Below, piece by piece: positions 51,312-64,000 of a stretch of 64,000 nt of DNA. The DNA lies in contig JANWVT010000004.1 of the NCBI GenBank assembly GCA_025056255.1, forward strand, positions 124,001 to 188,000, read 5' to 3'. The translations under genes and the position numbers were made by a program. Position 1 is the stretch's first letter, and the number at the start of each line of letters is the position of its first letter. The notes beneath the pieces were generated by a model, which did no database searches, was not told the DNA's origin, and saw nothing but the letters and a program-made list of their open reading frames with translations. The stretch is from Bernardetiaceae bacterium. Lineage in GTDB: Bacteria; Bacteroidota; Bacteroidia; Cytophagales; Thermoflexibacteraceae.

Positions 51312-52628
51312 CTAATTGAAAATCAGTTTGTAGATGTCGTTTCCAAAGGCAAATACCATTAAACCGAGCAACAGGAGCATGCCTACTTTTTGTGCACCTT
51401 CTAAGAAAGCCTGTGAAGGAGCGCGTCCTGAAATGATTTCATAGGTTAAGAATACAGCATGACCGCCGTCTAAGGCTGGAATGGGTAGCAGGTTCATAAA
51501 AGCCAATACCATAGACAGCAACCCTACTAATGACCAAAAGCGTATCCAGTCCCATGTGCCGCCAAACACTTTGGCAATACCAATTGGTCCGCTCAGGGAT
51601 TTGGTAACCGACATTTCGCCGCGAAACATTTTGCCAAATGCTTTTAGCTGTACAAAAACTACGTCGAACGCGTTGAACGTACCACGCACTACTGCCTCTG
51701 CCAAGCTGTATTTGCGCACAGCTGTTTGCAGCAAAAACTCTGGACGGAAACCAATGGTACCTTCTGGGGTAATCTGGATATATTTGATGACTTGTTCACC
51801 CTTGCGGTCTATCACAAATTTTACCTCTTCGCCTTTGTGTTTTTCAAGAAAGCTTTTCAAGTGTTGGAAATAAAGAATAGGGGTATCGTTGGCTGCAATA
51901 ATTTTGTCCCCTGGCTGCAATCCAGCTTTTCCAGCGGGCATATCGGGTTGTACCTCGCCTACGGCAAACGGATAAAGGGGGTCAATAAAAGAAGCATTTT
52001 GTTTATCGCCAAGTTTATCCATCAGGTCGGTAGGGAGGGGAATCATCATTTCTTTGCCGTTGCGCAAAACTGTGTAGTAGCTACCTGTTTCCAAAAAGAA
52101 ACTTGGATTGCGCGCATCTTCATAGCGCTCTAATTTTTTGCCGTTGATAGCAATTAACTTATCACCTTCTTGAAGACCTATTTCCGCTGCCAGTTTACTT
52201 ACATGAATACCGTGTTTGTTTACTTCGCTAATAGGTAGGTAGGTTTCGCCAAGAAAATATGCTAACCCAATGAATACCACAATGCCTGTAAGTACATTCA
52301 CAGTAATGCCGCCGAGCATCACAATAAGTCGTTGGTAAGCAGGTTTGGAACGGTATTCCCAAGGTTGTGGTTTAGAGCTAAGTTGGGCGGTATCGAGCGA
52401 TTCATCTACCATTCCGGCAATTTTCACAAAGCCGCCTAACGGTAGTGCTCCTACCATGTATTCGGTTTCACCTTTTTTAAAACTGAAAAGTTTAGGGGGA
52501 AATCCGATAGAAAATTTTTCTACGCGCATACCAAACCACTTGGCTGGTAGCATATGCCCTAACTCGTGCAACCCCACCATAATGGTGATTGCCAGAATTA
52601 GTTGGGCAGTCATAATTAATCCTTCCAT
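51312..52628 (-). CDS. rseP: Site-2 membrane protease RseP
   Basis: A 438-residue zinc metalloprotease that cuts transmembrane substrates such as anti-sigma factors. HELGH in TM1 (zinc and catalytic Glu), a PDZ region (LQEGDKLIAINGKK and a second, LQPGDKIIAANDTP), and LDGGH in the last part, with NLLPIPALDGGH supplying the third zinc ligand. The ATG at 52628 is preferred to 52658 because MEGLIM leads directly into TM1. It is in line with a transketolase N-half gene upstream on the same strand. Confidence 0.93.
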   Translation of the reverse strand: MEGLIMTAQLILAITIMVGLHELGHMLPAKWFGMRVEKFSIGFPPKLFSFKKGETEYMVGALPLGGFVKIAGMVDESLDTAQLSSKPQPWEYRSKPAYQRLIVMLGGITVNVLTGIVVFIGLAYFLGETYLPISEVNKHGIHVSKLAAEIGLQEGDKLIAINGKKLERYEDARNPSFFLETGSYYTVLRNGKEMMIPLPTDLMDKLGDKQNASFIDPLYPFAVGEVQPDMPAGKAGLQPGDKIIAANDTPILYFQHLKSFLEKHKGEEVKFVIDRKGEQVIKYIQITPEGTIGFRPEFLLQTAVRKYSLAEAVVRGTFNAFDVVFVQLKAFGKMFRGEMSVTKSLSGPIGIAKVFGGTWDWIRFWSLVGLLSMVLAFMNLLPIPALDGGHAVFLTYEIISGRAPSQAFLEGAQKVGMLLLLGLMVFAFGNDIYKLIFN

Positions 52629-52719
52629 TCTATTCGATGCAGATAGGTACGGCAGCACTATTTGCTGCTTTAACGATTGATTATTTGCTTACTAAACGTT
52701 GTGTGTAGCAATAAAGTTC

Positions 52720-53568
52720 TCAATAGTCTTTCCATTCGGTTTCTGGCAGTTGTGCCAGTGCTTTTGCCAGTTGCTCGTCGTTAGGGGCTACGCCGTGCCA
52801 TTTGTGAGAGTGCATCATGAAATCTACCCCGTAGCCCATTTCGGTGTGCATGAGTATAATCACGGGTTTTCCTTTTCCAGTTAGGTTTTTTGCGTGTTGC
52901 AAGGCAGCTATCACCTGTTCTAAATTATTGCCTTCGGTACACTCGGTTACCTCCCAGCCAAAAGCGCGGTATTTAGCACCCAAGTCCATTAGGTTCATCA
53001 CCTTGCTAACCGGACCGTCAATTTGTTGTCCGTTTAAATCAACGGTAGCAATCAGATTATCTACTTTGTGATGAGCAGCATACATGGCTGCTTCCCAAAT
53101 TTGTCCTTCTTGTTGTTCACCGTCGCCCATGAGTACGTAAACCAAGTGGGGGTCTTGGTTGAGTTTTTTGGCTTGTGCGGCTCCTATAGCTACTGAAAGC
53201 CCTTGCCCCAATGAGCCGGAGGCTACGCGAATGCCCGGCAAGCCTTCTTCTGTAGCGGGATGTCCTTGCAGGCGAGAGTTAATTTTGCGAAAAGTAGCGA
53301 GTTCCTGCACGCTGAAATAGCCAAAGCGTGCCAAAGTACTGTACCAAACTGGTGAAATGTGTCCATTAGAGAGGAAAAACAGGTCTTCACCAATCCCATC
53401 GGGTTGGAAGTTTGGGTTGTGTTTCATTATCACGCCATACAGTGCTACGAAGTATTCGGTGCACCCTAATGAACCGCCCGGATGACCAGACTGCGCAGCA
53501 TGTACCATGCGTAAAATATCGCGCCTGATTTGAGTAGCAAGCGTTTTGAGTTTTTGTATATCGCTCAT
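52720..53568 (-). CDS. Transketolase, N-terminal (ThDP-binding) subunit
   Basis: A 282-residue half-transketolase. Motifs are AAQSGHPGGSLG (substrate/ThDP channel), FLSNGHISPVWY, GSLGQGLSVAIGAA and the ThDP motif GDGEQQEG with the partner Asn in VDLNGQQ. It works with a separate C-terminal subunit, as in other bacteria with split transketolases; no such gene is adjacent. It acts in the pentose phosphate pathway. Start at 53568 (MSDIQKLKTLA). Its neighbours on the strand are rseP downstream and the DUF3667-like gene upstream. Confidence 0.93.
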   Translation of the reverse strand: MSDIQKLKTLATQIRRDILRMVHAAQSGHPGGSLGCTEYFVALYGVIMKHNPNFQPDGIGEDLFFLSNGHISPVWYSTLARFGYFSVQELATFRKINSRLQGHPATEEGLPGIRVASGSLGQGLSVAIGAAQAKKLNQDPHLVYVLMGDGEQQEGQIWEAAMYAAHHKVDNLIATVDLNGQQIDGPVSKVMNLMDLGAKYRAFGWEVTECTEGNNLEQVIAALQHAKNLTGKGKPVIILMHTEMGYGVDFMMHSHKWHGVAPNDEQLAKALAQLPETEWKDY

Positions 53569-53649
53569 TGTGAGAACGCAATAATTGTGCTTTGTATCAA
53601 CATCAGTTTACAATGAGCCGCAAGTTAGTAAAACTCTACTGAATGGTAA

Positions 53650-54432
53650 TTATGTTGTTGGAGCTTGCAACAGTTTCCAAAAAGTACCAACAGCCAAAAA
53701 GATAGAGTATAATGCCACCGAGATAAACATGCCAATGCTAACCACTCCCAGCGTGTACACACAAGACCACTGCCAGCTCTTTTGGCTCAGATGCTTGTAA
53801 ATAATCATAAGGCTGAAAAAATAACCCAGTAAATAAACTACAAAAATAGGTTGCAGCAATTCTGGCAGCACAAACAGCAGCGGATATGCCAACACCAATA
53901 TAAAATTCCACAAGGCTGAAACATAGGTGTGGATGATGATATGTTCTCCTAAAAATAGTTGCTTGCGCGGGTAAGGCAGCCAAGAAAGAAGCCCCATTAG
54001 CGGAATAAACAGAAAATAAGCAAAGCTGAAAGTATCGTTGAGCAATTGAAACATCACCTCAGCCTGTTTTTCGGCAGGAGGTAAATTAGGTGCATTTGCT
54101 TGGTTAGACGGGGGGGAGCTTGTTTGCTCTACTACTGATTTTGCTGAGGCTTGTTGAAGTTCTTGTGTCATGGATTTTTGCAGTATATCAGTTTTGAGCA
54201 ATACTAAGGCAGAAAGGGTGATGCTAACTGCTAAAAACTTAAACGGATTGGTCAATTTTGTTCTATCTGCAAACAAATAGGTGTGCACTACCCAATGAGG
54301 ACGTATCAGCAAATAGTAAAAGGTGTATATAAAACCCTTTTCAACATCAAAAATTCCCAGTACGTCTTCCCAGAGTTTATTCATGCTTAGGCGTGGAAGA
54401 GGCGCCGGTTGATTGGCACGTACAGACTCCAT
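53650..54432 (-). CDS. DUF3667-like integral membrane protein
   Basis: A 260-residue membrane protein of the DUF3667 type by pattern: an N-terminal amphipathic portion (LWEDVLGIFDVEKGFIYTFYYLLIRP), a helix near residue 70-85, a Gln/Ser/Pro-rich soluble loop, and four C-terminal helices (FSFAYFLFIPLMGLLSWLPY onward). The zinc-finger-like CxxC start seen in many relatives is missing. Function unknown. A possible 26-codon gene lies 31 bp upstream. Confidence 0.6.
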   Translation of the reverse strand: MESVRANQPAPLPRLSMNKLWEDVLGIFDVEKGFIYTFYYLLIRPHWVVHTYLFADRTKLTNPFKFLAVSITLSALVLLKTDILQKSMTQELQQASAKSVVEQTSSPPSNQANAPNLPPAEKQAEVMFQLLNDTFSFAYFLFIPLMGLLSWLPYPRKQLFLGEHIIIHTYVSALWNFILVLAYPLLFVLPELLQPIFVVYLLGYFFSLMIIYKHLSQKSWQWSCVYTLGVVSIGMFISVALYSIFLAVGTFWKLLQAPTT

Positions 54433-54463
54433 AAATCCATTGCTTATAGTTGCTTAATGCAAT

Positions 54464-54544
54464 TTACTCATCTTTTTTGTCATGCTTGCTCAGTGGCTTT
54501 TGAACATTTTCGATGCTTTTGAGCTCGATATTGTTTTGTGCCAT
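54464..54544 (-). CDS. Possible 26-residue small protein
   Basis: ATG at 54544 to TAA at 54464 on the minus strand encodes MAQNNIELKSIENVQKPLSK then HDKKDE. It is charged, has no membrane helix and ends 31 bp before the DUF3667-like start, so it could be a leader peptide or first gene. No family is recognised; chance is possible. Confidence 0.3.
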   Translation of the reverse strand: MAQNNIELKSIENVQKPLSKHDKKDE

Positions 54545-54560
54545 AAATAGTATGTAATAG

Positions 54561-54842
54561 TTGTTCAGGTTTTTGCAAGATTTATGTTGCCAAATTTATA
54601 TTCATGCAGGCAAACTCAACCTTGTTCGTATAACCCCGCACGTGGAGATGCGTGCAACAGCGAAAACGTTTTGGAGTGTAGAGGGTGAAAAATTCCGCAA
54701 TTCGAAATTTTCAATCCAAACTTCTATACGATGTAGTAAGGTTGTTTTTCCAGCTACTAATACTGAAATCCTGTTCATAATGCCATTCTGCAGTAGTGAT
54801 TCAGGTTTTTACATGTTTACCCTTATGAAACCTACACATGTT
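54561..54842 (+). repeat. Dispersed non-coding element R, copy 3
   Basis: About 282 bp with the same ordered blocks as the copies at 25811 and 30413 (GCCAAATTTATATTCATGCAGGCAAACTC, split here as separate short words; CAACAGCGAAAA; TTTGGAGTGTAGAGG; CCATTCTG). The 3' hairpin is CAGGTTT with AAACCTAC-type arms. It lies between two minus-strand genes rather than between convergent genes. Confidence 0.72.
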
Positions 54843-55075
54843 CTTAAACTGCTTGCAGCAATTGTTGCAAAACTTGGAAAGTTTTGAAAATTTCTTAGAT
54901 TAATTTATCAGTAGTGTTTTTACTCGCCTTGGGTCGGAATTTCACGTACCCACAAGGTGCCACCCTACTAAGTAAGATTAAACCCGACAGCTTTGAGAAG
55001 ACTGTCGAGTTTGGTAATGTGGCTTCAAACCAATGTAGTTGAGATGAGCTCAATTGCTTAACGCATTTGCAAAGG
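54843..55075. other. Rest of the gap upstream of the metallophosphatase stop
   Basis: Holds the terminator at 54980-55012. With element R copy 3 it makes up most of the 643-bp gap. No further gene is supported. Confidence 0.4.
54980..55012 (-). terminator. Terminator of the SoxB-like gene
   Basis: An 11-bp stem AAACCCGACAG / CTGTCGAGTTT with one wobble-type mismatch; the minus-strand tail is T-rich (TTTAATCTTACTT). Confidence 0.6.
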
Positions 55076-56779
55076 CTATTGAAATTGATAGTCCACACCG
55101 CGTACCTGAGTAAGCAGTTCTTGTGGCACGTCTAATGCTTTGGCTGAAAGAGCAGGGCGGGGCGTTACAGGGCTGTTGACTTTCAAATACTCTTTCATAA
55201 CCATATGCAGGGTAAAAGGCGTATTTTTCATATTGGTTACTCCCTTCATCCGGCAGAGCACGTCTTCGGGGTCGCCGTCGCGTTCGCACGCACACAAGGT
55301 ATAAGTTTTATTAGGGTCAAGCGGCTGGTCGTTAATCAGTATGCTTTGCACGCGTTGCCCTTTCTCGCCGTATGCATAAAAAGTAATTTTCATGCCTTTA
55401 AACTTCACTACCCATCCACCAAATCGTTCGGCTGCATTTTTGGCGAATACGTTGTTTAGTTCTTTTTCCAGCCATTCGCGAATTTGCTTACCTGTAGCCT
55501 GTGCCACTCGTACAATGCTGTCAACGGGCAACATTTCATATAAAAAAGCGCTGTTGATGGGAATATTGCCGGTTTTGTCGGGAGTAGCACGTGGCGAGCA
55601 AAACCGAAAACCGTTGGAAAGGACAACATCTACTTTGTACTCGTCTTTGAGCTTCCAATACAGGGCGTCTAAAATGAGCGTGTCAATGGTATTTTCAATC
55701 ACGAAATAGCGGTATAGCGGTAGTGTGCTGTAACCGATGACAGTGTTAAGGTCTTCTAGGAAAGGATGCTCGCTTTCTGCTATCAGTGCTTCCATTGATT
55801 TGTCGGGCTTGTAGCGGGTAGTACTGATTTCTACCAGTTCATACTCGTCTTTTATGACTTTGCCATTTTGCACGGTAAGTGCTAACTTGCCAACAAATGA
55901 ACCAAAAGCACCCGGTTCTACTACCTTGGCGTATTTGCATACAATTGGGGTGCGAACGCGCTCGTGGGTATCTCCACCAAAGATGTAGTCCACTCCTTCA
56001 CATACAGGTGAGTTAGCTAAATGAATTTGTTGAGATAAGCCCAGATGAGACAGTAAAACAACAAAAGCACACTGTTCCTGATTGCGCAAAACATCTACGT
56101 AGTGGGCAATATTTTCCTCGGGCTGCGTGTAAATAATACCTTTGCTGTAGTTGGGCGACTGCCTAAGGGGCACTAAGGGGTCTGTATAACCTATAAAGCC
56201 AATTTTGACGCCATTTACGTGCCAGATGTGATACGGCTGGAAAATGAGCTCTCCTTTTTTACCGTCTCCTAAGTCGTGATACATATTAGTACACACCTTA
56301 GGCGCATGAAGTGCGCCAAGTAGTTGCTGCATTGTTTTTTTGTAGTAAACAACTTCCCAATTGCCGGGTAAGAAAAGGTCGTAGCGCAACTGATTCAAGA
56401 TAGGCACCAGAGCTTTCCCTTTGGTTTTCACCGAAAGTTCACTTCCTTGAAACATATCGCCCGTATCTACCAAGAACGTATGCGGATGTGCTTTCCTGAA
56501 CTCGTTTAAATAGCTTGCTAAGTAGGCATATCCGCCTGTTTTTCTAAATACTATTTTGCCATTTTCCCAAAACAACTCGTCATGTGCATGTAGCTGACAA
56601 TGCACATCGGTAGTTTGTAGCAAGTAAATGGTAAAACTCTCGGCGTTCGACTTTTGGCTGCTCGTTCGTTCAGCAGTTTGAGCAGCAAAAGGAAAACTCG
56701 AAAAGGTGGTTGTCCCAATGCCAACAGCACCTAGTTGTTTGAGAAATTCTCTACGCTCGCGTTGTTTTTTCATTGTCAT
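55076..56779 (-). CDS. Tat-exported SoxB-like metallophosphoesterase / 5'-nucleotidase family protein
   Basis: A 567-residue protein of the 5'-nucleotidase/SoxB superfamily. The N-terminus holds a twin-arginine signal (ERREFLKQLGAVGIG), so it is exported folded. The metallophosphoesterase domain has TTDVHCQL, VDTGDMFQGSE, LSHLGLS and GGDTHERV. The usual GNHE is GNWE, with Trp where 5'-nucleotidases have the catalytic His, like the HWE form I recall for the thiosulfohydrolase SoxB. The C-terminal 5'-nucleotidase domain runs from about 330 (LSNGFRFCSPRA, FLYEMLPVDSIV). The substrate may be a sulfur ester or a nucleotide. No sox genes flank it. It follows the DUF2490 gene by 17 bp. Confidence 0.83.
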   Translation of the reverse strand: MTMKKQRERREFLKQLGAVGIGTTTFSSFPFAAQTAERTSSQKSNAESFTIYLLQTTDVHCQLHAHDELFWENGKIVFRKTGGYAYLASYLNEFRKAHPHTFLVDTGDMFQGSELSVKTKGKALVPILNQLRYDLFLPGNWEVVYYKKTMQQLLGALHAPKVCTNMYHDLGDGKKGELIFQPYHIWHVNGVKIGFIGYTDPLVPLRQSPNYSKGIIYTQPEENIAHYVDVLRNQEQCAFVVLLSHLGLSQQIHLANSPVCEGVDYIFGGDTHERVRTPIVCKYAKVVEPGAFGSFVGKLALTVQNGKVIKDEYELVEISTTRYKPDKSMEALIAESEHPFLEDLNTVIGYSTLPLYRYFVIENTIDTLILDALYWKLKDEYKVDVVLSNGFRFCSPRATPDKTGNIPINSAFLYEMLPVDSIVRVAQATGKQIREWLEKELNNVFAKNAAERFGGWVVKFKGMKITFYAYGEKGQRVQSILINDQPLDPNKTYTLCACERDGDPEDVLCRMKGVTNMKNTPFTLHMVMKEYLKVNSPVTPRPALSAKALDVPQELLTQVRGVDYQFQ

Positions 56780-56796
56780 ATTCGTAAAAAAGGTGG

Positions 56797-57525
56797 TTAC
56801 TTCTTTGGCGGCAACGTGTAGTAAAAATGAGTAACAAGGTTATTCTCGTCTATTAGCTCCATTCTGTTGCGCAGCAAACGGTTGATGTAGATATATCCTA
56901 ATTCTACTCGCCAACGAGCATTAGGTTTGTAATGCACATTAAAAATTAACCGATTGTGGTCATAGTGCTGCTTTTCTGCCATGCCAAACACATGTAGTAA
57001 GAGCTCATTAGCGGCAAAAGCTATCCACTTATCATTAAAGCGATAGCGCACCCCTAAGCGTTGCCTCAGCCGTACTGCATCGTCAACAGACTCGTTTTGA
57101 AAATGGCGGTATTCTGCCCATGCGCGCAAAGTAGCCGTCCATTTTTTACTTAGTTCGGGTTGCCACTCCGTTAGTGCTGCATAGCGAAACTCGTGCTGCA
57201 ATGGAGCATCTGCATCGGAGGGACTAACAATAATAGGGCTGGCAGCAAACCAAGTGAAGGGTGAGATGCTGGCGGCAAACTTAGGCGACGGCTTGTAGTG
57301 AACAAATACGCGTATGCTATGCGTTAAGTGTTCGTAGGCAGGATTCCACGCTGCCTGATTGAACAAGTTATTCTGCCGACGCATCTGCCCCTCTAATTCT
57401 ACATAAACAGCTGGCGAAATAGGCTCTGTAACAGACAAGCGCGTCCACCAGTTAATATGACTCTGGCAGCAAGCTGATACATGTAACAACATGGCTATGC
57501 AGCATGTCTCAAAACGGCAAAACAT
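56797..57525 (-). CDS. DUF2490 outer-membrane protein
   Basis: A 242-residue protein with a signal peptide (MFCRFETCCIAMLLHVSACCQ) and a barrel-like body of alternating aromatic strands starting HINWWTRLSVTEPISP and ending YIYINRLL...VTHFYYTLPPKK, as in the DUF2490 family. It probably sits in the outer membrane; function unknown. The ATG at 57525 starts the signal peptide; the frame continues to 57600 without coding character. It is upstream of the SoxB-like gene on one transcript. Confidence 0.72.
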   Translation of the reverse strand: MFCRFETCCIAMLLHVSACCQSHINWWTRLSVTEPISPAVYVELEGQMRRQNNLFNQAAWNPAYEHLTHSIRVFVHYKPSPKFAASISPFTWFAASPIIVSPSDADAPLQHEFRYAALTEWQPELSKKWTATLRAWAEYRHFQNESVDDAVRLRQRLGVRYRFNDKWIAFAANELLLHVFGMAEKQHYDHNRLIFNVHYKPNARWRVELGYIYINRLLRNRMELIDENNLVTHFYYTLPPKK

Positions 57526-57603
57526 ATATTCATATAAACATGTATTTATTCGTAATTTTAGCAACTTTATCGCACATATGCAAGATTTACATTTTTGCAT
57601 GTT

Positions 57604-57611
57604 TAAATTTG
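57604..57611 (+). promoter_or_regulatory. -7 promoter box for the carotenoid oxygenase-family gene
   Basis: TAAATTTG matches TAnnTTTG and lies 20 bp before the ATG at 57632, which supports that start. In such A/T-rich DNA a chance match is possible. Confidence 0.35.
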
Positions 57612-57631
57612 AAAAAACATATTACTTGGGT

Positions 57632-59800
57632 ATGTCGCTCCGACCTTTGCTTGCTGCCAGTCGCAAAGAACTCAACCAAATATTACTCAACGTGGAAGCC
57701 GGACAATTGCCAACTGACTTGTACGGCTTTGTGTTCATCAACTCTGCTGTAGGAACGGTCAACACAAACGGACTTCCGTATCCTGAAAAATACGCCGACG
57801 GCACGCCAGCACAAGAATATGGCACTCCTATTATTAATGGAGATGGACTCATACTCAAATTTGACTTCACCAAGAAAGGACAAGTATTGCTTAGCACGGG
57901 CTTGCTACGAACCCCTTGCTACTATGCCGACGAGGCAACCATGCGCGGAACAGTATGGCATAAAAAATATGGCTTTCGAAATTTCGGACTGGCACGCATT
58001 TCTGTTAAAATGGGAACGCGCAACCAAATCAATACTGCTATTCAACCTGTAAAATTTGGCAATGATACCAACACCCGCCTACTGGCTACTTTCGATGCTG
58101 GTAGACCTTTCGAGTTTGACCCCCACAATTTGAATCTCATTACCCCAATTGGCAAAAACAAAGAGTGGCGTGCTGGCACCCCGCCGTTCATGAATCCGCC
58201 TTTTGCCATGGTGCTTACCACAGCGCACCCAGTTTTTGACCCACGCACACGCGAGCTATTTACGGTAAATTTTACCAAAACAACCGAAGCGCTCTTGGCT
58301 GCTACCACTCTTTTTAGTGGGTTAGAGACCGACCCAGAAGGATTGGAAGCCCGCATTCGCAACTTTATGCAACTGGTAGAAAAAGAAAATCTTTCTCAAA
58401 AAGATTTGCTCAGCCGCGCAAGTAAGTTTTTCAAAACACTAGAAAACCAATATGTGCCCCAAAGAACTGTTTGGGAAAAACTATGGCACCTACTCAAAAA
58501 CGTTTTCTTAGGAAAAATAGATAGCCTGATTAGCAACAAAAATGCGGTTTACTTGATGAAATGGAACGGTCAAGGGGCGCTGCAACAATGGGAAGTTACC
58601 GACCAGCAAGGCAAAGGGCTGTTAATTGACCAAAACATGCATCAAATCGGGTTCAGCCAAGACTACATCATCCTTATTGATGCTGCATTTAAATTCAGTT
58701 TAGATGTAATGTTGTACAACATTTTTCCTGATAAGCCCGAGCTTGATGCTTTTATCCGAAAACTTACAAGCGGTGTGCAGCAAGATGCTACTGATATTTA
58801 TCTGATTCGTCGTGCCGACTTACAGCCCAATGTTAAGCGAGTACAGGCTAAAAAAATCGTCATTCCAATGGAAATGGTACATTTCTCGGTCAACTATCAA
58901 AACCCAGACGATATTATTACGCTGTTTTCGGCACATAACTGCTCTGCCTGCCCCGCTGAGTGGCTGCGTCCTTATGACCGCGAGGCGCTTTATCCTGAAC
59001 GGCAAGTGAGCGCCGACAAAGTAGGTTTGCTGGCAGTGGGAGCAATGGATGTGGGGCAAGTGGGAAAAATTGTTATAGATGCTCGCAATGGCGTGTATCT
59101 GGCTGAACGCAGTAAATATTACTTTCATACCGACAAACAAGGCGCACATACGTGGGGAGTTGGTCTGTACACTCACCGCAACCTGTGCTCTGCCGACCAT
59201 ACTACCGACAACATCACCCACATATACTGGCAAAGCTATGGTCTGCGCTCCGATATGCTCACTGTGTTTATTCGCCAACTATACGATAGCGCCAACCGCC
59301 GCCGCACAGTACCAGTATCGGAAGTGCTTGCAGCTACGCAAGAAGGAGCCCCTTATGTGCTGTTTTGTTTAGAAACAGAAAGCATGACAGTAAAAGATTT
59401 TTACGCTTTTGATAAAGAAACCTACTTTTGGTCGTTGCAATTTGTTCCACGCAGCCAGTCCAGAGCTGATGTGCCGCCCTATCAGGACGGATACATTTTC
59501 ACTACTGTAACAGTAGGCTATCCACAAGCCAATGGCACTTATGATTACCAACCGGAAGTTTGGCTGTTTGACGCCACCGACTTAGCAGGAGGACCTATTT
59601 GCAAACTTCATCATCCAGACATGTCATTTGGGTTTACTATACACAGCGCTTGGACTCCCGATGCACATCCTAATACTAACCCTGACTACAAAATCAATAT
59701 TAAAGAAGACTACGATTACATGCTTAACAAAATTCGGAATCGAGAATTCCGACAAGAAATTGGTCAAATTTTTCAGCATTATGTCTATCCCAATTTTTAA
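57632..59800 (+). CDS. Large carotenoid cleavage oxygenase-family protein
   Basis: A 722-residue protein of the RPE65/carotenoid-oxygenase superfamily, non-haem iron enzymes that split a carotenoid, apocarotenoid or stilbene double bond. The N-terminus shows GQLPTDLYGFVFINSA and NGDGLILKFDFTKKG. The four iron-ligand His positions are recognisable: His199 (TTAHPVFDP), His337 (NMHQIGFSQDY), His417 (MVHFSVNYQNPDD) and His671 (FTIHSAW). It is much longer than the usual 450-530 residues: insertions lie between the first and second His (about 250-330, charged helices) and between the third and fourth. No signal peptide. The SpoIIE phosphatase gene follows after 5 bp, so the two are probably co-expressed. 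Confidence 0.8.
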   Translation: MSLRPLLAASRKELNQILLNVEAGQLPTDLYGFVFINSAVGTVNTNGLPYPEKYADGTPAQEYGTPIINGDGLILKFDFTKKGQVLLSTGLLRTPCYYADEATMRGTVWHKKYGFRNFGLARISVKMGTRNQINTAIQPVKFGNDTNTRLLATFDAGRPFEFDPHNLNLITPIGKNKEWRAGTPPFMNPPFAMVLTTAHPVFDPRTRELFTVNFTKTTEALLAATTLFSGLETDPEGLEARIRNFMQLVEKENLSQKDLLSRASKFFKTLENQYVPQRTVWEKLWHLLKNVFLGKIDSLISNKNAVYLMKWNGQGALQQWEVTDQQGKGLLIDQNMHQIGFSQDYIILIDAAFKFSLDVMLYNIFPDKPELDAFIRKLTSGVQQDATDIYLIRRADLQPNVKRVQAKKIVIPMEMVHFSVNYQNPDDIITLFSAHNCSACPAEWLRPYDREALYPERQVSADKVGLLAVGAMDVGQVGKIVIDARNGVYLAERSKYYFHTDKQGAHTWGVGLYTHRNLCSADHTTDNITHIYWQSYGLRSDMLTVFIRQLYDSANRRRTVPVSEVLAATQEGAPYVLFCLETESMTVKDFYAFDKETYFWSLQFVPRSQSRADVPPYQDGYIFTTVTVGYPQANGTYDYQPEVWLFDATDLAGGPICKLHHPDMSFGFTIHSAWTPDAHPNTNPDYKINIKEDYDYMLNKIRNREFRQEIGQIFQHYVYPNF

Positions 59801-59805
59801 TTGTC

Positions 59806-61290
59806 ATGAATTTCTTGTTCTCTCAGCATCTGAACGTGTCAGAGCTCGAACCTGAATGGCAAAATGAATACCGCCGGATAGGAAAACTCTATGCCACTTG
59901 GGGAGGTTGGTTGGCTGCCCTGTTCTATCCTCTGGGCATTCTTTCTCAATGGCACGTTCCCAAGGAAAATGAGCTACTTTGGTGGTTCATGATGCTGTTT
60001 CCTACGCCGGTCATTTTGCTCACACTTGCCTTGCAGCGCATTTTGAAATTTCGGCATGAAATTGTTTTTGAAGTGGTCGCTGTGGCACTGTTTACCTCAG
60101 CTGCCTATCGTCCTAACTGCATAGATTGGGTTCCCTACTTAGTGTCGAATATTATTTGCTTTATTGCAGCAGCAGTTATGACTATCCTCTATCCAGTCAT
60201 TTTTGTCATTAACTTCACCTACATTATTGGCATCAACATTCTGTTTTTCGCGCTTTTTTGCAAACAACCTATCATAAACTTTTTCGTTTCTAACGAGTTT
60301 CCCGGATTTTTTGTAGTTGGCATACTGTCTTTTTCCATTTCCATTTTTCGCTATTACATCCTGAAAAGTAATTTCATGAACAGCTTGATGCTGAAAATAA
60401 CTCTTCGACAATTAGATGAAAAAAACAAGAGTTTGGAAATAGCACAAGCCGAGCTGCTATCTCAACAAGAAGAAATATTGGCTCAGCGCGACTTTATTGC
60501 TACCCAAAACAGCGAGTTAGAACAAAAAAACCGCATGATTACCGATTCCATTCGCTATGCACAGCGCATTCAGCAAGCTATGCTACCTTTGAGCGAAGCT
60601 ATGCGAGCGGTATTTCCTGAGCACTTCGTTGTCTATCAGCCCCGAGATATTGTGAGCGGCGACTTCTATTGGCTGCAGGAAAAAGACCACTACATTTTCT
60701 TAGCAGCTGCCGATTGTACCGGACACGGCGTGCCCGGTGCACTAATGAGTACAATTGGCAACAGCCTTTTAGAGCAAACCGTTGTGGAGCACGGCATTAC
60801 TACGCCCAATGCTATTTTAAGTGAAATGCGTATGCTGGTACAAAAAGCACTCAAACAACGCGAAACAGCCAACAAAGACGGAATGGATATTGCCCTTGTG
60901 CGCATTGATAAAGCAAAAAAAGAACTTGTATTTGCTGGCGCCAGAGCACCCATTCTAATTGTACAGCATAATACCTTGCTGTACACAAGAGGCGACCTAA
61001 CCGACATAGGCGGAGATGACTACGCCAATAAACACTTTACTAACCATTATTTTTCTTTTGAACAACCACTGGTTTTTTACTTATTCTCCGACGGCTATCA
61101 AGACCAGTTCGGCGGACCAAACAACAAACGATTTGGCATTAAAAGATTGAAAGAACTGGCTTTGCAGGTGCATGCCCTTCCAATGGAACAACAAAAGCAA
61201 ATTTTTATTGAAACACTTAACCACTGGCAAGCGCAAAGTATGCAACCTCAATTAGACGATATTATGTTGATAGGCGTACGACTGATGTAA
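59806..61290 (+). CDS. Membrane-anchored SpoIIE/PP2C-type serine phosphatase
   Basis: A 494-residue protein with five to six N-terminal membrane helices (about 30-190), a coiled coil (about 200-245, LDEKNKSLEIAQAELLSQQEE) and a SpoIIE-type PP2C domain (about 255-494). Acidic metal motifs are GDFYWL, DCTGHGVPGAL, GMDIALV, FSDGYQDQFGG and LDDIMLIG. It shares the linker IRYAQRIQQAMLP with the triple-GAF phosphatase at 18436. It probably dephosphorylates a Ser/Thr on an anti-anti-sigma or STAS-type partner. Starts 5 bp after the oxygenase stop. Confidence 0.88.
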   Translation: MNFLFSQHLNVSELEPEWQNEYRRIGKLYATWGGWLAALFYPLGILSQWHVPKENELLWWFMMLFPTPVILLTLALQRILKFRHEIVFEVVAVALFTSAAYRPNCIDWVPYLVSNIICFIAAAVMTILYPVIFVINFTYIIGINILFFALFCKQPIINFFVSNEFPGFFVVGILSFSISIFRYYILKSNFMNSLMLKITLRQLDEKNKSLEIAQAELLSQQEEILAQRDFIATQNSELEQKNRMITDSIRYAQRIQQAMLPLSEAMRAVFPEHFVVYQPRDIVSGDFYWLQEKDHYIFLAAADCTGHGVPGALMSTIGNSLLEQTVVEHGITTPNAILSEMRMLVQKALKQRETANKDGMDIALVRIDKAKKELVFAGARAPILIVQHNTLLYTRGDLTDIGGDDYANKHFTNHYFSFEQPLVFYLFSDGYQDQFGGPNNKRFGIKRLKELALQVHALPMEQQKQIFIETLNHWQAQSMQPQLDDIMLIGVRLM

Positions 61291-61547
61291 TTGGGGCGCA
61301 TTTTTTGGTTTTGTAGTCGATACAGACTGCTGAACACTCGCAAATGGTTATCCACTCTCGCCTAAGAGGCTTATCCAATATTATTCACTAACAATTTTAC
61401 AGGTAAAAAACAGCTGTTTTTTTGCCAGCTATTTGGCAACGCACCGCATGGCTGCCATCGATTGCTAAACTTTTGGTATCAAAAAAACAGCTGGTAGCAC
61501 TCCAACACAGCTGTTTTTCTTATCTTAGATTGCTTCAATGTGATAAT
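61291..61547. other. 257-bp gap with repeated CAGCTG palindromes upstream of the DUF58 gene
   Basis: CAGCTG cores flanked by A and T runs occur at 61411, 61488 and 61508; the first is an 18-bp perfect palindrome (61405-61422). No TAnnTTTG box is clear. The frame open from 61422 crosses this region without coding character. Confidence 0.5.
61405..61422. promoter_or_regulatory. Perfect A6-CAGCTG-T6 palindrome
   Basis: An 18-bp perfect palindrome with two related sites at 61481-61493 and 61508-61518 that together form an inverted pair. It could bind a dimeric regulator or act as a terminator of the phosphatase transcript; the T run after the first copy fits either. Confidence 0.4.
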
Positions 61548-62882
61548 ATGCCAATTTTATCTGCTCTTTATTTGCAAAACCGCTTGCTAATAGCATGTAT
61601 GGTGCTGATAGCGTTATTAGCACTATCATTCGGTTTAGAATGGCTTTTTCTTCCGGCTAAAATATTAAATGGTTTGCTCGTATTGGTGTTGCTAATCGAT
61701 ATAGGCTTGCTGTTTTCTTTGGAGCAAGGTGTTACAGCCGACCGCCATATGGAAAGCAAACTTTCTAATGGAGAGGCTAACCTGATTCGTATAACGGCGC
61801 GCAATTGCTATCGCTTTAAAGTAGGCATAGAAGTATTAGACGAGGCACCAGAGCAGTTTCAAGCCAGAAATCTGCATCTGCGGCAGCATAATGTACCCCC
61901 TAAAAGCACTGTGGAGTTTCGCTACTACCTGCGCCCTACTAAACGAGGCGAGTACCAATTTGGTGCAATCAACGTTTACGTTACCTCTCCTATTGGGTTA
62001 GTAGCACGCCGCTATAAGTTTGCACAAGGAACTACTGTTTCGGTATATCCTTCGTTGATACAAATGCGCAAATATGAAATGATGCTGTTTGCTAACCGAT
62101 TAACAGAAGCCGGTCTGAAACGCATTAGGCGCATAGGGCAAAATATGGAGTTTGAACAAATCCGCGAATATGTAAGTGGCGATGATTACCGCTCGCTCAA
62201 TTGGAAAGCCACTGCAAGGCGTAACCAGCTCATGGTCAACCAATTTCAAGAAGAGCGCTCGCAACACATGTACAACGTGATAGACAAAGGACGCGCCATG
62301 AAAATGCCTTTTGCAGGGCTTACACTGCTCGACTATGCCATTAACACATCATTAGTAATGGCAAATATTGCGCTACTAAAAGGCGATAAAGCCGGTCTGG
62401 TAACCTTTAACCAGCGGATTGGCACCATTCTACCTGCCGAACGCAAACAAACACAAATGAAAAAAATACTGGAAGCGTTGTATAACCAAAAAACCTCTTA
62501 TAAGGAACCCGACTACGACCTGTTATTTACAACGCTATTAAAAAAAATAAAACAACGCAGCTTGCTAATTCTTTACACCAACTTTGAAACACAACTGTCG
62601 CTCGAGCGGCAACTTCCCGGACTGCAAAAATTAGCTAAACAACACCTACTAATAGTCGTTATTTTTAAAAACACAGAACTAAACCAACTGCTGCAAAGCC
62701 GCCCGCGCAATTTGGAAGAGGTATACATAAAAACTATTGCCGAGAAATTTATGCTTGAAAAAGAGCTCATTGCTAAAAGATTGATGCAAAATGGAATTTA
62801 CGCCATCCTTACTGAACCCACTCAATTGACCATTGATACAATTAACAAGTACTTAGAACTAAAAGCACGGCACCTGATATAA
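61548..62882 (+). CDS. DUF58 domain protein
   Basis: A 444-residue DUF58 protein. Two N-terminal membrane helices (IACMVLIALLALSFGLEWLF and LLVLVLLIDIGLLF) are followed by a beta-rich domain and the family hallmark GDDYRSLNWKATAR with a vWA-like C-terminal half. DUF58 genes usually sit with a MoxR AAA+ ATPase and vWA/BatA proteins; none is visible before the convergent hydrolase gene. The ATG at 61548 begins the first helix and is preferred over the frame start at 61422. Function unknown; a role in envelope assembly or stress is often suggested. Confidence 0.85.
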   Translation: MPILSALYLQNRLLIACMVLIALLALSFGLEWLFLPAKILNGLLVLVLLIDIGLLFSLEQGVTADRHMESKLSNGEANLIRITARNCYRFKVGIEVLDEAPEQFQARNLHLRQHNVPPKSTVEFRYYLRPTKRGEYQFGAINVYVTSPIGLVARRYKFAQGTTVSVYPSLIQMRKYEMMLFANRLTEAGLKRIRRIGQNMEFEQIREYVSGDDYRSLNWKATARRNQLMVNQFQEERSQHMYNVIDKGRAMKMPFAGLTLLDYAINTSLVMANIALLKGDKAGLVTFNQRIGTILPAERKQTQMKKILEALYNQKTSYKEPDYDLLFTTLLKKIKQRSLLILYTNFETQLSLERQLPGLQKLAKQHLLIVVIFKNTELNQLLQSRPRNLEEVYIKTIAEKFMLEKELIAKRLMQNGIYAILTEPTQLTIDTINKYLELKARHLI

Positions 62883-62883
62883 A

Positions 62884-62933
62884 GCACAAGCTTGTTGGGG
62901 AGTATATTCTCTATTGACTGCAACAAATTGTGC
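62884..62933. terminator. Inverted repeat between convergent DUF58 and hydrolase genes
   Basis: GCACAAGCTTGTTG (62884-62897) and CAACAAATTGTGC (62921-62933) pair with one or two irregular positions over a 23-nt loop. No long T tract follows. Confidence 0.4.
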
Positions 62934-62958
62934 GGTTGGAGTGGCTTCACTTGTCGGT

Positions 62959-63732
62959 TCACCCTGCCTGTACCTTCAATCCGTCGTAAGCCAGTTGTAC
63001 ATTGGCTGGAAGCTCTTGGCTTACTTCGGCATGTAACCCAAGATGATGGCTAATATGCGTTAGGTATGCCATGCGCGGTCTGATGCGTTCTACTATTGCC
63101 AGCGCCTCTTCCAAATTGAAGTGAGAAATGTGCTTCTCTTTTCTTAAGGCGTTGATAACCAATATTTCTGAGCCTTCTATTTTTGCCATTTCTTCGGGAG
63201 CAATGTAGTTGGCATCTGTAATATAAGTCAGGTTGCCAAAGCGAAAACCCATTACAGGCAATCTGTAGTGCATCACTTCAATAGGGATAATGGTAGTTTG
63301 TCCGTCGTCCATTACAAACGGATGCTTATTAATCTCTCGCAAATCAATACTGGGGGTACCGGGATATTTGACAGGAGAGAAAGCATAAGCAAACTCTTGT
63401 TTTAACTGTTCTATCACTTGTGCAGTAGCATACACGGGCATGTCGCGTTGGTCTTTAAAATTAAACGAGCGGATATCGTCCATGCCGGCTGTATGGTCTT
63501 TATGTGCATGCGTAAATAGCACAGCATCCACGTGTGTGATATTTTCGCGCAACATTTGTTGGCGAAAGTCAGGACCGGTGTCTATAACAATGCTGTATCC
63601 ATTAAACTTCACATAAGCTGAGGTGCGCAAACGCTTGTCGCGAAAATCTATGGAGCCACAAACCCGGCAATTACAGGCAATTACTGGTACCCCTTGCGAG
63701 GTACCTGTTCCTAAAAACGTCAACTCTGTCAT
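62959..63732 (-). CDS. PhnP-like metallo-beta-lactamase-fold hydrolase
   Basis: A 257-residue MBL-fold protein close to PhnP/phosphoribosyl cyclic phosphodiesterases. The N-terminal FLGTGTSQGVP, two Cys of CNCRVC (often zinc-binding in PhnP), the metal motif THAHKDHTAG and the C-terminal THISHHLGLHAEV support it. The actual substrate may be a cyclic phosphate or a lipoate/octanoate-type ester. The start overlaps the stop of the gene upstream by 4 bp, so the two are coupled. Confidence 0.85.
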   Translation of the reverse strand: MTELTFLGTGTSQGVPVIACNCRVCGSIDFRDKRLRTSAYVKFNGYSIVIDTGPDFRQQMLRENITHVDAVLFTHAHKDHTAGMDDIRSFNFKDQRDMPVYATAQVIEQLKQEFAYAFSPVKYPGTPSIDLREINKHPFVMDDGQTTIIPIEVMHYRLPVMGFRFGNLTYITDANYIAPEEMAKIEGSEILVINALRKEKHISHFNLEEALAIVERIRPRMAYLTHISHHLGLHAEVSQELPANVQLAYDGLKVQAG

Positions 63733-64000
63733 TGTACCTTCACAGCACTGATACCAAAATATTTGGCAAATCCTTGATTAGAAACAGCATGAGCAGGATT
63801 AGTAGTCAGTTCTTCAAACATAAGCAATTCCATGTGAGTATCAATTGGCGGAAGCAACAAAGTATCGGTTGGGTGCATTTTCTTATGTTGCAACACTTGT
63901 TTGTAGCGCGCTTGATGGTCTTTTTCGTATTGCACCGCATCGCCGTTGAGCAAAGTTATCCATGCCACCCCCACCTTGGTATTAGGAGAATACAATTTGA
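63729..64000 (-). CDS. C-terminal end of a larger protein (5' truncated)
   Basis: An open frame of about 90 codons runs off the right edge; the TTG at 63995 is not a real start. It carries NGDAVQYEKDHQARY and a Pro-rich end (LLLPPIDTH...NQGFAKYFGISAVKV), like the soluble C-terminal part of polytopic membrane proteins of the DUF6056 or glycosyltransferase kind. Confidence in that family is low. It overlaps the hydrolase gene by 4 bp. Confidence 0.45.
   Translation of the reverse strand, partial: KLYSPNTKVGVAWITLLNGDAVQYEKDHQARYKQVLQHKKMHPTDTLLLPPIDTHMELLMFEELTTNPAHAVSNQGFAKYFGISAVKVQ

Follow-up and report, generated by a model that had tools for sequence, protein, structure and literature searches.

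The gene for an oversized protein of the carotenoid-oxygenase superfamily and the signalling gene which usually follows it form a real, conserved unit. Our computations show that the oxygenase stays constant while the output of its partner differs between lineages. The unit is described here from a window of 64,000 nucleotides (the whole stretch of DNA we have analyzed), in which the partner is a membrane phosphatase.

The oxygenase gene (57632..59800, forward strand) codes for 722 amino acids. It is assigned to the RPE65/carotenoid-oxygenase superfamily by Pfam (PF03055, 88.1 bits, cut-off 27), by an AlphaFold2 model and by a structural match to NOV1. The start at 57632 is backed by relatives with the same beginning; the reading frame is open further upstream, to 57491. 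The model is confident (pLDDT 91.1, pTM 0.92). Among the matches listed, the closest solved structure is NOV1 (Z 28.2, rmsd 3.3, 438 residues aligned), and RPE65 (3kvc) gives Z 24.8, rmsd 3.6 and 435 aligned residues. This comparison with ACO and RPE65, proposed in the initial annotation, confidently predicts a carotenoid-oxygenase (beta-propeller) fold. Sequence searches of the PDB with the single protein were weak (best E 0.049); a profile search reached known oxygenases at E 1e-8. The NCBIfam equivalog for the lignostilbene dioxygenase NOV2 (NF053780) scores only 34.2 bits and its cut-off of 650 is not reached. No relative turned up when genome contigs were scanned with the window protein alone. 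An alignment query of the contigs gave 79 loci, picked by the pattern around His199. The long protein marks out a subfamily, mostly of 700–800 amino acids, with members in Bacteroidota, Cyanobacteria and some further phyla. In the order to which the window belongs, relatives of ordinary length have 473–511 amino acids (n = 20; the 21st, of 369, is broken into two frames), so the description of the window protein as about 200 residues longer than usual is correct.

The four His ligands expected from the first reading of the sequence are present: His199 (codon 58226..58228, TTAHPVFDP motif), His337 (58640..58642, MHQIGFSQDYIIL motif), His417 (58880..58882, EMVHFSVNY motif) and His671 (59642..59644, FTIHSAW motif), all on the forward strand and assigned from alignments as metal ligands 1 to 4. 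Each is conserved in 45 of 46 aligned sequences, the window included, and a profile-profile alignment (hhalign) with ordinary-length relatives places all four on the canonical ligands (E 7.5e-27). The complete set is found in 100 of 105 distinct long homologues, and four of the other five are cut-off frames. Conservation of His199 is partly a matter of selection in the 79 loci, since they were picked by the pattern around it; this does not apply to the other three. Judged by its sequence, the protein carries a complete four-His iron-ligand set, and cleavage of a polyene or stilbene is its putative activity. In one congener (G002) the oxygenase is without any of the four His and also lacks two Glu that are otherwise conserved; this genome has no 6TM match either, which fits a parallel decay of the two genes.

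The phosphatase gene (59806..61290, forward strand, 494 amino acids) starts 5 bp after the oxygenase stop, which ends at 59800, just as first reported. It is a SpoIIE/PP2C phosphatase by Pfam (PF07228, 60.4 bits, cut-off 25), with the match C-terminal to about six predicted TM helices. Three parts follow each other on the same strand: A six-TM N-terminal domain (about residues 15–192, 59848..60381), a long helix, presumed to be a coiled-coil linker (about residues 193–259, 60382..60582), and the PP2C domain (60607..61287), with conserved SGDF, DCTGHG, SDGYQDQ and C-terminal DD motifs. The residues D286, D303, D429 and D484/D485, which we take to be the acidic residues of the metal site, fall in columns of alignment A3 that are invariant or at least 90% conserved. 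The closest solved domain is SiaA-PP2C (6k4e_B: Z 28.7, rmsd 2.5, 242 residues aligned, 32% identity). Only PP2C structures are found among the matches of this fold search, whose rows lie outside the 6TM part and barely probe it; the 6TM domain has no Pfam match. No Rfam family matches at gathering score in 52000–64000, and no tRNA was found in the window.

The pair is kept in relatives, which the initial annotation had regarded as decisive for its proposal. Among the 98 distinct loci with a downstream gene, the next codirectional gene codes for a 6TM or kinase-AAA_16 signalling protein in 66, and for a SpoIIAA-like protein in five more. By comparison, none of 542 genes four or more positions away from the oxygenase is of the 6TM or kinase type. 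The figure becomes 68 of 98 when L144 and L148 are mended: They were miscounted as unpaired, as a spurious reverse frame hid a second oxygenase copy directly before the kinase. Two loci with the kinase upstream of the oxygenase (L061, L164) are outside the 66. Median gaps between oxygenase and partner are 52 bp for 6TM (n = 11), 21.5 bp for kinase (n = 54) and 38 bp for SpoIIAA-like partners (n = 5). These counts take the longest open frames as genes and label domains with profiles seeded in these same loci. Only sequences identical over their C-terminal 250 amino acids were removed as redundant, so close relatives, above all Algoriphagus, are over-represented. An unrelated or opposite-strand gene lies downstream in 26 of the 98 loci (counted before the mending), including those of Bernardetia, Thermoflexibacter and Nostoc. 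The oxygenase tree shows at least 16 switches between paired and unpaired rows.

Given the wealth of signalling genes, particularly in cyanobacteria (as many as 17 kinase-AAA matches in a single genome), two common gene types might lie side by side by chance. We consider this hardly credible and have rejected it on the pairing counts. Besides the contrast between 66 of 98 and 0 of 542, a kinase-AAA search of 20 genomes found seven with a single match at E 1e-20 or better, which is the neighbour of the oxygenase every time. Moreover, none of the 21 ordinary-length relatives adjoins such a signalling gene (flanks of up to 1500 bp). In one of these 21 loci (L181), a histidine kinase lies two genes upstream. 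Five of 291 genomes have a strong 6TM match (E < 1e-80), always beside the oxygenase. Weaker 6TM relatives are found in 15 other genomes of the 291; six of these have a long oxygenase on a different contig and the other nine have no match to it, so the 6TM domain is not exclusive to the unit. In another congener (G003) oxygenase and partner are both gone, apparently by one deletion, and their joint loss counts as one event.

The initial annotation saw a pairing with a SpoIIE-type regulator. It is real in the window, and SpoIIE is just one of several outputs in the wider pattern: Partners also carry Guanylate_cyc (nucleotide cyclase), HisKA-HATPase (histidine kinase), GGDEF or AAA_35 domains. 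For example, in L049 a 6TM domain of the window type stands in front of a class III nucleotide cyclase. The oxygenase tree requires at least 15 changes of partner and at least 12 changes of output, counting only rows with a known partner. A raw count of 34 changes included the labels "none", "contig end" and "cut kinase", which the recount omits; ten loci were relabelled by hand, including L136 by analogy with L134. No domain common to the 6TM and kinase-AAA-GAF inputs was found in our scans. The assignment of the small SpoIIAA-like neighbours rests on a weak match to PF11964, found in five of ten proteins when hits up to E 5 were admitted (best E 1.9e-4); at E 0.01 the two members scanned (L069, L055) had no match, and a PDB profile search gave E 0.74 at best.

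We propose that the oxygenase and its neighbour make up one two-gene signalling module. The oxygenase would be the input side, cleaving a non-polar polyene oxidatively, and the substrate would most likely be a carotenoid or apocarotenoid; crtI-type genes are near-universal in the order (356 of 390 genomes score over the family cut-off, and 371 have a match at E 0.001). Cleavage would make or remove a lipophilic small molecule. The neighbour would sense this molecule, in the window by its six-TM domain and in further lineages by its kinase-AAA-GAF part; a SpoIIAA-like carrier fold may be the sensor in Bernardetia relatives and in one further genome (G405). For the window pair, a ligand bound to the six-TM domain would act through the long helix on the PP2C domain, which resembles that of SiaA and would then dephosphorylate a partner-switch protein of the SiaC or STAS type. 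For a module of this kind, with a non-polar ligand that the oxygenase makes or removes and the neighbour reads, we judge the case to be evenly balanced. The wider reading is somewhat more tentative: In several phyla, a lipophilic messenger of the apocarotenoid type may be made or destroyed by the long oxygenase and received by the neighbour, with a phosphatase, cyclic-nucleotide, c-di-GMP or histidine-kinase output.

The extra length of the oxygenase bears on a different reading. The initial annotation placed it in a charged helical insertion between the first two ligands. The model does have a helical insert there (about residues 218–302, 58283..58537, forward strand), and its charge is only mild: D, E, K and R make up 22 of its 85 residues and 151 of the 722 residues of the protein overall. 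It accounts for some 90 of the extra residues, while about 70 are found in the stretch from H417 to H671 and the others nearer the two ends. The ligand spacings are 138/80/254 in the window oxygenase, against 48/65/183 in the first ordinary relative. The insert is the part of the model with the lowest confidence (pLDDT 44–91 by block of 10, below 50 at 292–301), and its consensus is mostly unconserved among relatives. Such a region might follow the partner, and a variable helical insert in an oxygenase longer than its ordinary relatives is a possible partner contact. The oxygenase itself would then do the sensing: Its shape would change with iron, O2 or a bound lipid, and it would touch the neighbour directly, with no released product. 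One conserved input protein with partners as unlike as 6TM, kinase and SpoIIAA-like proteins also fits a portable sensor. Nevertheless, low conservation of the insert is by itself no proof of contact, and the nearly constant four-His set is what catalysis would lead us to expect, though a metal sensor would as well. We regard this reading as unlikely, if worth keeping in mind.

The direction of control might also be reversed, with the signalling protein acting on the oxygenase or its pathway and the adjacency reflecting feedback regulation of a metabolic enzyme. Enzymes often adjoin their regulators. On the other hand, it is difficult to see how outputs as diverse as PP2C, nucleotide cyclase, histidine kinase and GGDEF would all control a single enzyme in the same way, and none of the other gene clusters is found in more than six of the 48 loci surveyed; feedback of this kind seems rather improbable.

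A retinoid- or light-linked signal was also suggested at first, and it has not stood as far as a rhodopsin is concerned. The long oxygenase might make retinal for a microbial rhodopsin, with the partner reporting light. In favour of this, a rhodopsin (E 8.2e-36) is present in the window's genome, no BCD (Blh-type) gene was found there, and the long protein is the genome's sole RPE65-family match. However, rhodopsin was not found in four of the 14 searched genomes with an intact long oxygenase, nor in G461, whose oxygenase lies in two frames. Conversely, the congeners with a ligand-less (G002) or deleted (G003) oxygenase keep their rhodopsin without a BCD match, and BCD is also present in six of the 14 genomes with an intact long oxygenase. 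From this distribution of rhodopsin and BCD, we have rejected retinal supply as the main reading and consider it very improbable. We also dropped the idea that the long oxygenase goes together with carotenoid synthesis: The crtI-type genes are too widespread to be informative, and all 14 control genomes match at E 0.001.

Carotenoid cleavage products serve as hormones and chromophores in plants, fungi and animals. Apart from rhodopsins, we know of no bacterial signalling route that is dedicated to them. A messenger system of the wider kind proposed above would, if real, be the prokaryotic equivalent of apocarotenoid hormone signalling. With a constant oxygenase and a varying output the question is directly testable, as enzyme, candidate receptor and readout are all named, and the cyclase and phosphatase outputs occur in cultured Algoriphagus and Marivirga species. 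No description of the pair was found among the open-licence papers listed by full-text searches, judged by titles and the starts of abstracts, and nothing like it appears in the matching passages of two family surveys (PMC3299332, PMC5133782).

Several known systems may be compared with the unit. The window oxygenase has the predicted fold of NOV1, LsdA, LSD4, ACO and RPE65 (PF03055; Z 24.5–28.2 among the 50 matches listed), and shares their four-His ligand set. It differs from the solved carotenoid and stilbene oxygenases in being more than 200 residues longer, with 13–19% identity over the structural alignments, and from its ordinary relatives in the order in adjoining a signalling gene. The best solved match of the phosphatase, SiaA, belongs to the SiaABCD partner-switch pathway of Pseudomonas aeruginosa. 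The likeness is partial: The SiaA model NF038263 gives 191.8 bits, misses its cut-off of 700 and covers only profile positions 397–657 of 658, and the window phosphatase has a six-TM domain in front. The SiaC family is present in all 11 genomes searched, with four matches in the window's genome, all on other contigs. It is also present in G002 and G003, so SiaC genes do not track the module.

The layout of the window phosphatase, six TM helices followed by a helix and a catalytic domain, is that of class III adenylyl cyclases (Rv1625c, mammalian mACs). The 6TM domains of cyclases are described as lipid receptors in two papers (PMC11606603, PMC12505454). A resemblance of SpoIIAA-like proteins to CRAL-TRIO carriers is likewise described in a third (PMC2954212). 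We count both as precedents for a lipophilic ligand in the proposed module. Proteins of this type (PF11964, STAS/CRAL-TRIO-like) are the oxygenase's neighbours in the five loci counted above and are absent from the window's locus. Finally, enzyme-plus-receptor gene pairs are known in bacteria: Heme oxygenase is found beside bacteriophytochrome, and LuxI beside LuxR. In both cases the supplier of a small molecule lies next to its reader, as in the module we propose. The window pair uses a different enzyme family, and its small molecule and sensing step are putative.

The window contains two genes arranged head to tail on the forward strand and separated by 5 bp: an oxygenase gene at 57632-59800, coding for 722 amino acids (Pfam RPE65, 88.1 bits), and a phosphatase gene at 59806-61290, coding for 494 amino acids (Pfam SpoIIE, 60.4 bits). 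On the opposite strand, 31 bp away, lies the start of a DUF2490 gene, and a DUF58 reading frame opens after 131 bp on the downstream side. Three copies of ACAGCTG beside runs of A or T are found at 61409-61520, in the interval that separates the phosphatase from the DUF58 start; they are perhaps part of a terminator. The oxygenase is the only RPE65-family match in the 3.39-Mb draft genome of this bacterium.

Judged by its sequence and predicted fold, this long protein is a genuine member of the oxygenase family. An AlphaFold2 model from a 63-sequence alignment shows the oxygenase fold (mean pLDDT 91.1, pTM 0.92). Among solved structures, the best match is the stilbene dioxygenase NOV1 (438 residues aligned, Z 28.2, rmsd 3.3); LsdA, LSD4, VP14, CAO1, ACO and RPE65 (Z 24.8) come next, so that ACO and RPE65, the comparison proposed in the initial annotation, are among the matches. 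The four histidines expected there as metal ligands are present: in an alignment with relatives of ordinary length (E 7.5e-27) they fall on the four ligand positions, and the complete set is kept in 100 of the 105 distinct long homologues (sequences of at least 550 amino acids). Four of the other five end before the last histidine. The only true loss is L014, a relative with 30-34% identity in another genome of the genus, G002 (L014:9019-10965), where all four histidines and two otherwise conserved glutamates are gone. Its frame is still open, and by its sequence the protein would be a natural pseudoenzyme; it has no signalling gene beside it.

With the window's own genome included in each count, long proteins of this type are found in every one of the four genomes of the genus (one being a remnant and one the ligand-less L014). 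At family level they occur in 9 of 13 genomes and at order level in 46 of 390; a sample of 395 genomes from the phylum has 5. An alignment query of named genomes gave 79 loci among the best 80 of 90 matches; they correspond to Bacteroidota and Cyanobacteria, with single genomes labelled Spirochaetales, Kapaibacterium and Ignavibacteria. Relatives are also found on four plasmid records.

Genes were called at 127 oxygenase loci, of which 102 were left once identical copies were removed, 98 of them with a downstream gene. The neighbour was defined as the first gene downstream on the same strand, disregarding tandem oxygenase copies and very small frames. In 66 of these 98 loci it codes for a six-TM or kinase-AAA_16 signalling protein, while 542 genes located four or more positions away include neither type (16 are histidine kinases, 5 SpoIIE, 1 cyclase and 3 SpoIIAA-like): the pairing of oxygenase and signalling protein is conserved. 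The SpoIIE partner suggested initially is indeed present in the window and in relatives, but it is only one of several outputs. Ten of the 11 six-TM neighbours have a SpoIIE output and one a cyclase. The 55 kinase-AAA_16 neighbours, about 1640-2100 amino acids long when complete, end in a cyclase (23), SpoIIE (11) or a histidine kinase (7); in the remaining 14 the end is truncated, separated from the rest of the gene or of a different type. A Pfam search of ten partners outside the window detected Pkinase, AAA_16 and GAF in all nine large ones, and confirmed Guanylate_cyc, SpoIIE, HisKA/HATPase, GGDEF and AAA_35 as outputs. Other loci have a small SpoIIAA-like gene (5) or a histidine-kinase-type gene (1). 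The neighbour is unrelated or on the opposite strand in 26, two of which (L144 and L148) prove to be paired when re-inspected.

Some loci have unusual arrangements. Tandem oxygenase pairs are found in eight cyanobacterial loci (L134, L136, L144, L145, L146, L148, L153 and L166), preceding the kinase in five; in L153 the copies are fused in a single 1463-aa frame. The aligned tandem copies keep all four histidines, and positions E414 and E443 are variable. In Thermonema rossianum (L080 / L133) the oxygenase is split in two frames (277 + 438 aa), with three six-TM SpoIIE genes around it, two of them diverged. Locus L066 (genome G407) has four SpoIIAA-like genes in a row downstream; on its upstream side are a SpoIIE gene and an incomplete oxygenase copy. 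In L061, which has two oxygenase copies, and L164, a kinase-AAA-GAF-SpoIIE gene is found upstream of the oxygenase, not downstream.

Three controls indicate that the pairing is specific. None of 21 ordinary-length family members of the same order (369-511 aa) has such a partner in flanks of up to 1500 bp, although a histidine kinase does occur two genes upstream of one of them. The kinase-AAA part, searched in 20 genomes, has a single match in seven (G114, G671, G698, G754, G659, G153 and G776), next to the oxygenase in all seven. In the remaining 13 the number of matches ranges from two to 17; it is highest in cyanobacteria, where a kinase neighbour is therefore less telling. Strong six-TM matches (E <1e-80) are found in 5 of 291 genomes of the order, always beside the oxygenase. 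Weaker ones (E 3e-48 to 2e-8) are found in 15 further genomes, of which six have a long oxygenase, located on a different contig, and nine lack one. No six-TM match is found in G002 or in G003, a congener with an oxygenase remnant. In the longest blocks on either side, G003 is about 93% identical to the congener G001, and its gap begins inside the phosphatase gene and extends into that of the oxygenase. Since this gap reaches into both genes, they were probably lost at once, in a single event.

In an oxygenase tree of 95 rows, obtained by a quick method, the partner changes at least 15 times (65 rows with a known partner) and the output at least 12 times (60 rows with a known output). A supported group of 12 rows includes the window, its congener, L014, Marivirga and the loci L093, L050 and L049; all except L014 and L093 have a six-TM partner. 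A single input with two outputs is best illustrated by L049, whose partner carries a cyclase in place of the SpoIIE of the others. As the enzyme-like member of the pair stays the same and the output varies, the simplest reading puts the oxygenase on the input side of the module.

A retinoid- or light-linked signal had been suggested. Each of the four genomes of the genus has a rhodopsin (PF01036), that of the window's own genome (L216:7263-7874, contig G000:C96) having a lysine in its last helix, and none of the four has a BCD (Blh-type) match. A link through rhodopsin is not supported, since no rhodopsin match is found in 4 of the 14 genomes that have the long oxygenase intact, nor in G461, where the oxygenase is broken into two frames, while G002 and G003 retain theirs. 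These two also lack a working RPE65-family gene, and the rhodopsins of the genus have no evident source of retinal. The module may still have an apocarotenoid link.

What passes between the oxygenase and its neighbour may be a non-polar molecule; the main rival is direct contact between the two proteins. Three indirect hints favour the non-polar molecule. The substrates of the oxygenase family are polyenes. Six-TM domains of cyclases respond to lipids, according to passages of PMC11606603 and PMC12505454, and a passage of PMC2954212 describes SpoIIAA-like proteins as similar to CRAL-TRIO carriers of non-polar molecules. The weakest of these points is the one on cyclases, which bears on the window only if the six-TM domain of its phosphatase is homologous to theirs.

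Both protein families are already known and enzyme-plus-receptor gene pairs exist; we have not found this coupled module described in the open-licence literature, an incomplete body. The window phosphatase has about six TM helices, followed by a long helix and a PP2C domain. SiaC-family genes are found in all 11 genomes tested, with four in the window's genome, all on other contigs; they do not track the module, since G002 and G003 have them too. SiaC is the target of SiaA in a partner switch, according to part of PMC7647112, and SiaA is the protein closest to the PP2C domain of the phosphatase (Z 28.7, 32% identity).
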